This document shows, piece by piece, positions 50,784 to 54,030 of a stretch of DNA of 64,000 nt. The notes below the pieces were generated by a model that worked only from the letters and a program-made list of their open reading frames with translations, did no database searches and was not told where the DNA came from. Numbering within the stretch: the first letter of the stretch is position 1; each line of letters opens with the position of its first letter. The position numbers and the translations under genes were made by a program. Where the stretch lies: the NCBI RefSeq assembly GCF_004118375.1, contig NZ_SDHX01000001.1, positions 1,305,693-1,369,692 of the forward strand. The letters are read 5' to 3'. Source of the stretch: Oleiharenicola lentus. GTDB lineage: Bacteria; Verrucomicrobiota; Verrucomicrobiia; Opitutales; Opitutaceae.

Positions 50784-51629
50784 TCAGCGCGGCAAGTGCT
50801 CCCGCAGAAACGCGTCGATCAGACGGAGGCTCGCCTCGCTGGTGAAGGCCGGGCCGCCGTGCGCGGAACCGTGCGCGACCTTGAAGACCACGGGCCGTCC
50901 GGCTGACTCGTAGGCGCCGGTCAGCTCGTGCGACTGGTTGATCGGCATCTGTGGGTCCTGGTCACCATGCATGAGCAGCAGGGGCGGATCGCCGGCATCG
51001 ACGTGGAACACAGGACTGGCGAGCCGCGCGAGCTCCGGCACGGCGTCGGGTTGACCGCCGAGGAGCAGGTCGAGGGCGGGCTGCCGCACGCTCAGGCCGT
51101 GCGACGTGGATTGCGCGAGAATGGTGGTGAGGTTGCTCGCACCATAGAGACTGACGATGGCCTGCACGTCGGAGGAGATTTTCAGGTCGCTGCCCACGGT
51201 GCCCTCGAGCCCGGGATGGCCGTTGGTTACGCCCACCAGCGCGGCGAGGTGCGCCCCTGCGGAGGAGCCGGCGATGATGAACCGGTTCGTGGGCAAGCCG
51301 AGCTCACCGGCGTGGGCGCGCAGGTGGCGGATCGCAGCCTTGATGTCATGGATCTGGGCCGGGAATTTCGCCGCGGTGGACAGGCGGTAGTCCACGCTGG
51401 CCACCGCCCAACCCAGTGCCGTGAGTCCCTTCAGATCTACGCTCTCCCGCGACCCGCTGCGCCAGGCTCCGCCGTGCACCCAGACCACGACCCCCGCCGC
51501 AGCCCCGTCCGGCCGGTAAAGATCCAGCTTGAGGGTGGTGTCGCCCGCCTGCGCAAAAACAAGCCCGCGGGTCGATTGCTCCGCCCGGAAGACGGCAACC
51601 AGCATCACAAAGCAAAACAGCAGGCGCAT
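50784..51629 (-). CDS. secreted alpha/beta-hydrolase esterase (BD-FAE-like)
   Basis: The 281-residue protein (ATG 51629) starts with a signal peptide (MRLLFCFVMLVAVFRAEQ). The oxyanion HGGAW motif is at about residue 60, the nucleophile in GSSAGAHLAAL (GxSxG), the acid in HGDQDPQMPI, and the histidine in AHGSAHGG near the C-terminus. This set is typical of esterases such as the bifunctional carbohydrate-esterase/feruloyl esterase group. The 280-bp intergenic region towards the divergent PQQ gene contains two strong palindromes. Confidence 0.85.
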   Translation of the reverse strand: MRLLFCFVMLVAVFRAEQSTRGLVFAQAGDTTLKLDLYRPDGAAAGVVVWVHGGAWRSGSRESVDLKGLTALGWAVASVDYRLSTAAKFPAQIHDIKAAIRHLRAHAGELGLPTNRFIIAGSSAGAHLAALVGVTNGHPGLEGTVGSDLKISSDVQAIVSLYGASNLTTILAQSTSHGLSVRQPALDLLLGGQPDAVPELARLASPVFHVDAGDPPLLLMHGDQDPQMPINQSHELTGAYESAGRPVVFKVAHGSAHGGPAFTSEASLRLIDAFLREHLPR

Positions 51630-51719
51630 GGGTTTCGCCCCAGACACTCCTGCGCCGTCAGAAAATAGCAACCTCCCGCACCCGCCCCGGTTAGGCCCAG
51701 ACCCGTCCTCCCGCACTCC

Positions 51720-51813
51720 GCCCTGCGAATGTTCGTATTACGAACATTCGCAGGGCCGTCTCCCTCGGGCGACGGCGCCAAACCCGGCCCAATGTTCGTA
51801 ATACGAACATTGG
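51720..51813. promoter_or_regulatory. pair of long perfect palindromes (candidate divergent operator)
   Basis: The first palindrome spans 51720-51756, 37 bp, perfect on both sides of a single central base, with core AATGTTCGTATTACGAACATT. The second spans 51789-51813, 25 bp, with core AATGTTCGTAATACGAACATT. The centres (51738 and 51801) are 63 bp apart, six turns of B-DNA, so a protein bound to both would lie on the same face. They stand between the esterase ATG (51629, minus) and the PQQ dehydrogenase ATG (51910, plus). The cognate regulator is not in the window, and a mobile REP element is the alternative. Confidence 0.65.
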
Positions 51814-51909
51814 TGGCGGAGTGGCTGACGGGGAGGAAGCGGGATGGGAGCCGGGGCCGGTGCGGGTATCGGGTGGACAACGGCGGAGGGGGTTTTAACT
51901 GTCGGGGGC

Positions 51910-54030
51910 ATGCGGTTACCCCTCCTCGCGCTTTTCGCAGCCGGCGGCTGCTCGTGTCTGCAGGCCTCGGCCGGACGTGACTGGCCGGTTTACCTGGGGG
52001 ACAAGGCGGCGAGCCACTATTCGACACTGACACAGGTAACGCCGGCCAACGTCACCCAGCTTGAGGTGGCCTGGACATTCAACACCGGCGACCTGCGCGA
52101 GGGATCCACGCAGATCCAGTGCAACCCGCTGATCCTCGACGGCGTGCTTTATGGCACGACGCCGCAGACCAAGGTGTTCGCGCTCGACGCCGCCACGGGG
52201 CGCGAACTGTGGCGCTTCGCTCCGGAGAATCCTAACGGCCTCAACCGCGGTCTCGCGACGTGGACCGACGGCACGGAGCGGCGCATCCTCTTCGGCAACG
52301 GCCAGTGGCTGCACGCGCTCGACGCGAAGACCGGCCAGTTGATTGCGACTTTCGGCAACGGCGGCCGCGTGGATCTTTCGCAAGGCCTCGGTCGCGACGC
52401 CACCGGCCTCGCCATCCAGGCCAACACGCCCGGTGTCGTCTTCCGCGACCTCATCATCGTGGGTTTCCGCGCCGGCGAGGGACCGGCGCCGGCCGCGCCG
52501 GGGCACATCCGCGCTTACAGCGTGCGCACGGGCGAACTGGTCTGGACCTTTCACACGATTCCGCACCCGGGCGAACCCGGTCATGAAACCTGGCCGGCCG
52601 ATGCCTGGCAGCGCGTCGGCGGGGCCAATGTCTGGACCGGCATGACGCTGGATGAGGAGCGCGGCCTTGTGTTCTGTCCGGTCGGTTCGGCGGCCTTCGA
52701 CTTCTGGGGCGGCGACCGGCATGGCGACAACCTCTACGCCAACACCCTGCTCGCGCTCGACGCCGCCACGGGCCGAAAAGTCTGGCACTACCAGTTCGTG
52801 CGCCACGACCTGTGGGACCGCGACCCGCCCTCGCCGCCGAACCTCCTCACCATCCGCCGCGACGGGCGGGAAATCCCCGCCGTCGCGCAGACGACAAAGT
52901 CCGGGCACGTGTTCGTCTTCCACCGCGAGACGGGCGAGCCGCTGTTTCCGATCCATGAGATCGCGGTCCCGACCTCCGACCTGGCCGGTGAACTCACCGC
53001 CGCCACCCAGCCGGTGCCGGCCAAGCCCGCGGCGTTTGCGCGCCAGCATTTCACGGTCAACGAGATCACCGACCGCACGCCCGAGGCGCACCGGGCGGTG
53101 TTGCAGCAGTTCGCGCGGCTGAGGCCGCACACGCCCTACATGCCACCGAGCCGCGAGGGCACGATCATCTTCCCGGGTTACGACGGCGGGGCGGAGTGGG
53201 GCGGCTCGGCGGTGGACCCGGCGGGTGTGCTCTACGTGAACAGCAACGAAATGGCCTGGATCCTCACGATGGTGGAGACGGGCGGCGCAGCCACACCGGG
53301 GGAGCAGGTTTACCGGCAGAACTGCATTGGTTGCCACGGGGTGAACCGCGAGGGCAACCCGGCGGCGAGCATTCCCGCGCTCACGGACATCGGCCAGCGC
53401 CTGACCCGCGAGCAGGTGTTCGAGGTGATCACGAAGGGCCGCGGCGTGATGCCGCCCTGGGGCTTTCTCACGGAGAAGCAGCGCGAGGCGGTCACCGGCT
53501 TTTTGCTCGGCGACGCGCCGCCGAACCGCCCGGACAATTCCGCCAAAGCCGCGGAGTGGGTGACGTGGATGCCGGACCGTGCGCCCGGCGTGGCCGTGCC
53601 GCCGCCCTACACGCATACGGGCTACAACCGCTGGCTCGACCCCGAGGGTTATCCGGCCGTGAAACCACCCTGGGGCACGCTGAACGCGATTGATTTGAAC
53701 ACCGGCGAATACCGCTGGAGCGTGCCACTCGGCGAATACCCGGAGCTCGCGGCCAAGGGTGTGCCGACCACCGGCACGGAAAACTACGGTGGACCGCTCG
53801 TGACCGCGGGCGGCGTGCTCTTCATCGGCGCAACCCGGGATGAATATTTCCGGGCCTTTGATCCGAAGACCGGCCGCGAGTTGTGGCGATTCAAGCTGCC
53901 CGCCGGGGCCTACGCCACACCCGCGACCTACGAGGCGGGCGGGCGGCAGTTCATCGTGATCGCCTGCGGCGGCGGCAAGATGGGCACGAAGAGCGGCGAC
54001 GCCTACGTGGCCTTCGCGCTGCCGAAGTGA
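51910..54030 (+). CDS. PQQ-dependent dehydrogenase with embedded cytochrome c domain
   Basis: The 706-residue quinoprotein has an export signal (MRLPLLALFAAGGC..., possibly a lipoprotein signal). It is an eight-bladed beta-propeller with tryptophan-docking repeats: WPVYLGDKAASHYSTLTQVTPANVTQLEVAWTFNTGD at the start and repeated DAATGRELWRF/KTGRELWRF words. A cytochrome c motif, CIGCH (Cys472-His476), with a distal Met in GVMPPWGFL, is inserted between blades. The closest pattern is the membrane-type glucose/quinate-like group (quinoprotein dehydrogenases with haem insert). The substrate is unknown; it would feed electrons to the periplasmic chain. PQQ synthesis genes are not in view. Confidence 0.9.
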   Translation: MRLPLLALFAAGGCSCLQASAGRDWPVYLGDKAASHYSTLTQVTPANVTQLEVAWTFNTGDLREGSTQIQCNPLILDGVLYGTTPQTKVFALDAATGRELWRFAPENPNGLNRGLATWTDGTERRILFGNGQWLHALDAKTGQLIATFGNGGRVDLSQGLGRDATGLAIQANTPGVVFRDLIIVGFRAGEGPAPAAPGHIRAYSVRTGELVWTFHTIPHPGEPGHETWPADAWQRVGGANVWTGMTLDEERGLVFCPVGSAAFDFWGGDRHGDNLYANTLLALDAATGRKVWHYQFVRHDLWDRDPPSPPNLLTIRRDGREIPAVAQTTKSGHVFVFHRETGEPLFPIHEIAVPTSDLAGELTAATQPVPAKPAAFARQHFTVNEITDRTPEAHRAVLQQFARLRPHTPYMPPSREGTIIFPGYDGGAEWGGSAVDPAGVLYVNSNEMAWILTMVETGGAATPGEQVYRQNCIGCHGVNREGNPAASIPALTDIGQRLTREQVFEVITKGRGVMPPWGFLTEKQREAVTGFLLGDAPPNRPDNSAKAAEWVTWMPDRAPGVAVPPPYTHTGYNRWLDPEGYPAVKPPWGTLNAIDLNTGEYRWSVPLGEYPELAAKGVPTTGTENYGGPLVTAGGVLFIGATRDEYFRAFDPKTGRELWRFKLPAGAYATPATYEAGGRQFIVIACGGGKMGTKSGDAYVAFALPK

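Follow-up and report, generated by a model that had tools for sequence, protein, structure and literature searches.

The two long perfect palindromes in the window (the whole stretch of 64,000 nucleotides that was analysed) are part of a set of near-identical sequences scattered through the genome, and would be two copies of a dispersed site that is recognised by a small HTH protein. The HTH protein and the dispersed palindromes quite probably form a recognition pair, with binding predicted from sequence comparisons. We read the system as REP-like dispersed palindromes built around a repressor-like protein in place of a RAYT transposase, the mode of copying and the function both being proposals, and it would work in the manner of REP-type palindromes that are dispersed and bracket a cognate gene. 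It would then be a new class of self-maintaining repeat: an HTH protein and a palindrome that co-evolve and spread through insertions of ~21-27 bp, with copies on either side of the gene, many specificities within one family and a genome-wide rewriting of the copies upon a change of the recognition helix, all without a recognisable transposase. This reading is given a probability of about 0.45. Open-licence PMC papers on palindromes, REPs or XRE proteins in Opitutaceae, Opitutus, Lacunisphaera or Verrucomicrobia, or on in-frame palindromic elements, yielded no description of the system.

The system makes it testable how some 20-50 sites of 21 bp are gained, kept near-identical and rewritten along with a single small protein in which no catalytic domain is visible. 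With dozens of protein-site pairs occurring naturally in a single HTH family, there is also material for reading a code of DNA recognition and for building orthogonal repressors.

Palindromes in the window

Both palindromes (Table 1) contain the core AATGTTCGTA[T/A]TACGAACATT, each with a single centre base, and their centres are 63 bp apart. The nearer palindrome centre is 109 bp from the start of each flanking gene, given the ATGs chosen in the analysis. A preliminary description of this DNA had reported two long perfect palindromes with a shared core at this distance between a divergent esterase and PQQ dehydrogenase, and the window sequence bears this out, the esterase being an alpha/beta hydrolase of the BD-FAE type. 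The 17-mer within the core occurs twice in the window at up to three mismatches, compared with 0.03 expected from window shuffles. No other perfect palindrome of the 64-kb window with an odd centre has arms of at least 9; two with an even centre, both GC-rich, do. A sigma-70-like promoter was sought in 51600-51960 and none was found, the test being a weak one. An outer stem around the pair, C-rich on the left and G-rich on the right, was considered and rejected, as unrelated copies are equally complementary and 976 of 2000 permutations were as good.

Table 1. Palindromes and flanking genes in the window
Feature	Coordinates	Strand	Remarks
Palindrome 1	51720..51756		37 bp, perfect; arms 18; centre T51738
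Palindrome 1, make-up			21-bp core 51728-51748 plus a locus-specific arm of 8 bp per side
Spacer between the palindromes	51757..51788		no obvious conservation among spacers of different pairs
Palindrome 2	51789..51813		25 bp, perfect; arms 12; centre A51801; 21-bp core 51791-51811
Alpha/beta hydrolase, BD-FAE type	50784..51629	-	PF20434, E 2.6e-57; divergent neighbour
PQQ dehydrogenase with cytochrome c domain	51910..54030	+	PF01011, E 4e-193; divergent neighbour

Number and placement of the copies

The genome that holds the window (G000; 4.71 Mb in two contigs) has 52 matches to the 21-bp core at up to two mismatches and 57 to the 17-mer at up to three mismatches, with four matches to a backward control pattern, and the copies are dispersed over both contigs. 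Fifty of these sites (loci L097-L121), which form 29 clusters, were examined. The 17-mer is exact in 48 of them, with one change in another and a symmetrical double change in the last, and by our own count all 21 bases are exact in 44 of the 50. Among 95 genomes, any copy of the 21-mer at up to two mismatches was found in 12, and within the genus in 9 of 21. An exact 21-mer is also present in a public contig (WLRQ01000072.1; L048) filed as Actinomycetota; this contig may be misbinned, since the other 79 records listed bear titles of Verrucomicrobiota groups.

Placement of the copies rests on a simple in-house gene caller that is imperfect and leaves 1.8 kb uncalled at one locus. Based on these calls, the copies are mostly intergenic and have no preference for promoters: 38 of the 50 sites lie outside called genes and 12 inside them, though the caller assigns about 88% of these loci to coding sequence. 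Nine of the 29 clusters are inside genes and 7 are in convergent, 8 in tandem and 5 in divergent intergenic regions; with so many clusters within genes and between convergent genes, the placement is therefore unlike that of promoter operators. The preliminary description had proposed an operator pair for the esterase and PQQ dehydrogenase promoters, a proposal which this placement leaves unsupported. It had also named many copies in non-promoter positions as evidence that would count against its own proposal, and the search that it suggested, for the 21-mer core and its gene contexts, gives about 50 copies, many of them away from promoters. The dispersed element that it had entertained as the competing reading is the better explanation, but it is not a REP of the GTAG-tagged kind. 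Eleven in-gene sites share a reading frame (N or D, V-R, I or N, T-N-I) and the twelfth uses another; the peptide added by in-gene copies is mostly NVRITNI or NVRNTNI.

Outside the 21-bp core, column composition of the 50 sites revealed a C/G bias at positions +-11 and +-12, and no fixed tag around the sites, whether the GTAG (or CGTC) that ends a GTAG REP or another. Palindromy continues past the core in a locus-specific form to about +-17 (181 matches versus 154 in permuted flanks, sd 7) and drops below that of permuted flanks at 18-30 from the centre (167 versus 196). GC skew flips at the 50 sites, being C-rich on the left and G-rich on the right and fading by about 100-200 bp; the flip is present between convergent genes too, and at in-gene sites it is found on one side only. 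An Rfam search of 13 of the 25 G000 loci returned one tRNA.

Spacing of paired copies

Among the 50 sites there are 21 pairs within 160 bp. Spacing was analysed in 56 distinct pairs that have arms of at least 8, share the same half-site and are at most 160 bp apart, drawn from G000, the related genome G020, public genomes and other relatives. No spacing in this set is shorter than 44 bp, 28 fall at 44-54 bp, none at 77-99 bp and 12 at 100-123 bp. Some pairs outside the set lie within the gap, with spacings of 78 bp in G030, 92 bp in G040 and 99 bp in G020. Phasing at 10.5 bp over the 56 pairs is weak (R 0.23). For the G000 pairs alone (n=19) R is 0.58 at 10.5 bp and is better at 9.5 bp (0.73) and 11 bp (0.75). 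For the window pair the spacing is 63 bp in G000 and, at the orthologous place in G020, 54 bp. Thus the six helical turns of the preliminary description hold as arithmetic for the 63 bp, but neither the orthologous pair nor the weak phasing of the 56 pairs follows them, and the phased looping that it had suggested finds no support in a spacing that lacks overall phasing.

A small HTH protein and its bracketed gene

The candidate partner of the palindromes is an HTH protein of 122 amino acids, found in G000 as a profile match at G000:C1:847757-848116; the window lies about 510 kb away. At this locus (L102; G000:C1:847614-848149) three sites surround the 122-aa ORF, with centres 15 bp before the ATG, 16 bp after the gene end and, for the third, 119 bp further upstream. 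The HTH gene also lies between two sites in G020 and at the public loci L016, L018, L037, L063, L070, L072 and L089. The bracketing sites are 379-398 bp apart and some of them are imperfect. L056 carries a more distant relative with no site nearby. Two further sites of the L102 cluster in G000 enclose a YjbR-family gene. This gene (L102:5615-6010, - strand) and its site pair lack an equivalent at that place in G020, where 48 bp correspond to the 672 bp here.

The predicted architecture of the protein is an N-terminal helix, a basic linker and a helical domain, with model helices at 54-112. An AF2 model built on eight public sequences is of moderate quality (mean pLDDT 71.5), and its Foldseek matches are weak, all with E >= 0.28; the first is a CUT domain and most are XRE-type repressors (lambda/P22/HipB/C-protein). 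Searches of Pfam, PHROG and NCBIfam with the HTH protein returned no match of value, none being above the cut-off in Pfam, and the best match in a PDB sequence search had an E of only 0.09. A role in defence was considered and set aside, the best PADLOC match (ZorB, E 0.017) not being taken as meaningful, as was an origin in phages or plasmids, for relatives were found neither in viral contigs nor in plasmids or phages.

Relatives of the protein were detected almost exclusively in one family. A search of 95 genomes with profile A1, in which up to 46 candidates per genome were scored, found relatives in 39: all 21 of the genus, 18 of 40 other family members and none of 34 genomes outside the family. 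In a sample of the phylum with up to 11 candidates scored per genome, relatives occurred in 19 of 387 genomes, of which 18 belong to the same family and one is borderline (E 4e-5).

Covariation of recognition helix and palindrome

Up to eight paralogs per genome occur among the candidates scored, with many specificities, and these paralogs adjoin other palindromes centred on TA[AT]TA, with half-sites such as ATTTGCCG, AGTTTCACG, TTTGTAACG, TTTGTCACC and TTTGTAATA. A palindrome with this centre lies within 400 bp of the gene in 50 of 78 rows of the paralog list (48 of 75 distinct loci), on both sides in 34 rows; for the rows from G genomes the count is 43 of 70, versus 0.00 expected from first-order resampling of the flanks. 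In 22 of the 28 remaining rows a repeat of at least 13 nt occurs in the two flanks alike and is mostly that motif in imperfect form, by a threshold that was set after viewing the list and without a control. Palindromes and flank repeats together give 70 of the 75 loci a palindrome-like site of their own nearby, and five have no such site. At seven loci (L296, L306, L309, L292, L297, L245 and L280) the sites are asymmetric, for example TGTCACC-TATTA-AGTGACA, and the same asymmetry recurs across genomes; perhaps these paralog sites consist of unequal half-sites.

The sequence of the nearest site follows that of the recognition helix. Over 48 loci, nearest-site distance correlates with recognition-helix distance at r 0.67 and with distance in the rest of the domain at 0.37. 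The partial correlation of helix and site is 0.61, a value reached by 0 of 2000 permutations, which do not fully remove shared ancestry. AATGTTCG pairs with HRARxGEYF or HRGRISDYF and AAAGTTCG with HKARVGEFF, while TGTNACG is found mostly with PRQRxxx, TGTCAAC with DRQ(A/Q)VxAYF and GTTTCAC/T with (P/S)PQRVH. Exceptions are L063 and L016, both with HRARIGEYF, where one or both arms of the nearest site differ from AATGTTCG. Since the HTH family co-varies with the palindromes, a previously unknown regulator-like protein is supported as their recogniser. The regulator-like recognition envisaged in the preliminary description is upheld to this extent, and the dimer that it had assumed is suggested by the symmetry of the sites.

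Palindromes and genes also tend to occur in the same genomes. The pattern TGTNAYNTANTANRTNACA is exact in 45 of the 95 genomes, all within the family and none among the 34 outside it, with up to 84 matches per genome and 0-2 for the backward control. Across the 95 genomes 36 have both gene and palindromes, 3 the gene only, 9 palindromes only and 47 neither. Of the 40 genomes in the family but not in the genus, 15 of 18 with the gene hold any copy versus 9 of 22 without it (Fisher 0.0097), and 12 of 18 versus 1 of 22 hold at least 10 copies (3.5e-5, at a threshold chosen after the counts were seen). G040 has 16 matches of the AATGTTCG type, yet its one paralog among the candidates scored pairs with another palindrome.

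Change, erosion and gain in relatives

In G020, whose protein carries HKARVGEFF where AATGTTCG-type proteins have HRAR or HRGR, most of the orthologous sites have changed too. There are 34 pattern matches (control 3), and 20 of the 32 sites examined are exactly AAAGTTCGTA[AT]TACGAACTTT; three others are hybrid or half-changed and nine are of the old type, of which six deviate from that type by our own count. At +-8, 16 of 20 orthologous G000/G020 sites have changed on both arms, two on one arm and two on neither, and the aligned flanks are 81-90% identical. Excluded from this count were L114/L204, L098/L215 and L121/L218, where the alignments place the sites non-orthologously. In-gene sites have changed in G020 as well, altering the encoded peptide. 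Conservation is incomplete, as five or more G000 sites (nadB, and a pair each at L102 and L104) lack an equivalent at that position in G020. In G003 the only family member detected pairs with TGTCAC-type sites, and no protein matching the G000 core was found. Copies in this genome are eroded, with 5 of 21 bases changed in MoeA and 7 of 21 in a glycosyltransferase, and the nadB and cupin copies are missing. One CATG...CATG copy is retained elsewhere in G003 though no matching protein was found.

Presence and absence at a precise place between relatives is seen in nadB, the cupin and the glycosyltransferase. At the nadB site 12 of 15 relatives are shorter than G000 by 27 nt, with 9 other nt lying nearby in one of the 12, and the remaining three, G007 among them, by 18-24 nt. 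The nadB alignment (L320-L335) also holds a near-copy with one mismatch in G007 at the same position as in G000, and none in the closer G020, a pattern that may reflect either repeated gain or repeated loss. The cupin linker has two separate gains in G000 and G020, and is without a copy in three aligned relatives. In the glycosyltransferase G000 and G020 are 51-54 nt longer than seven relatives, with G003 intermediate. The net difference in MoeA is just 3 nt, and therefore insertion is not the sole possible origin. Judging from these alignments, sites likely arise when ~21-27 bp are inserted, the spacer being DNA of the host, and few loci stand behind this.

Possible mechanism and comparison with known systems

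Each palindrome would be bound by a protein dimer, and the HTH gene would be autoregulated through the site that lies about 15 bp ahead of its ATG. A unit of ~21-27 bp would insert, often twice about 50 bp apart, and thereby make new sites. The HTH protein and the palindromes may thus spread and persist together, with the HTH protein taking the place of RAYT. That the sites were born by insertion and that protein and palindromes spread jointly as a REP-like element is suggested more tentatively than the recognition pair, and is somewhat short of an even chance.

Alternatively, the protein could have a role in chromosome architecture, bridging or anchoring dispersed and often paired sites regardless of gene orientation. 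Noc/parS, matS and SlmA are systems in which a DNA-binding protein has tens of conserved sites that are independent of gene orientation, and the palindromes resemble them in offering tens of sites, in any gene orientation, to what is predicted to be one DNA-binding protein. Dispersal over both contigs, a preferred spacing of pairs, and maintenance and change of the sites in concert would all fit this role. It is nevertheless unlikely given the patchy occurrence in the genus, where fewer than half of the genomes have a copy at up to two mismatches, and the many specificities with as many as eight paralogs in a genome; moreover, clustering is not evident by eye among the G000 and G040 positions listed, for which the origin is not known. 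Turnover of specificity between related species, several sets per genome, the pairs and gains by insertion also set the palindromes apart from Noc/parS, matS and SlmA.

A conventional global regulon, with the HTH protein acting as transcription factor on palindromes that serve as operators and are kept by purifying selection for regulation, is more doubtful still. The protein is like autoregulated XRE/lambda-repressor-like regulators (P22 c2, HipB and C.AhdI) in having a palindrome adjoining its own gene, just upstream of the ATG, and may be like them in its HTH fold, to which the weak Foldseek matches point; the covariation of sites with the helix and the conservation of positions in two species would also be expected of a regulon. 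Unlike those of P22 c2, HipB and C.AhdI, the sites flank the gene on both sides and number about 50 genome-wide without being tied to promoters. Against a regulon are the 9 of 29 clusters within genes and the 7 of 29 in convergent regions, divergent regions not being preferred, the in-frame gains represented by some in-gene copies, and the scarcity of degenerate copies, given that 44 of 50 are exact over 21 bases. Degenerate copies are commoner among usual operators than among these palindromes.

The combination of a dispersed palindrome with a bracketed HTH gene, which we favour, is closest to REP/REPIN-RAYT systems. Both have short dispersed palindromes that are often paired and mostly intergenic, with some in frame in genes, a cognate gene flanked by repeats, and several sets in one genome. 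The palindromes differ from REPs in that the bracketed gene encodes an HTH protein and not a Y1 transposase, and in being perfect, centred on TA[AT]TA, without a GTAG tag and poor in degenerate copies. Passages of PMC3733652 describe the gene of the cognate protein as flanked by repeats in REP/RAYT systems and GTAG REPs as occurring in O. terrae, a verrucomicrobium. With such REPs in a verrucomicrobium, with short palindromes, pairs and in-frame intragenic copies, and with four Y1 transposase hits in G000, a GTAG/RAYT-type REP (REPIN) family moved by a Y1 transposase might be considered, but it is very improbable because there is neither GTAG nor another fixed tag and no Y1 locus has sites, the core being absent at up to 6 of 21 mismatches from the loci (3.1-3.3 kb) of all four hits, and the regularly bracketed gene is the HTH gene.

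A further likeness is to the Rickettsia palindromic elements (RPEs), in which in-frame palindromes within genes likewise add a short peptide. RPEs are longer than ~21-27 bp, whereas the unit described here has that size, is tied to a protein family and is found in an unrelated host.
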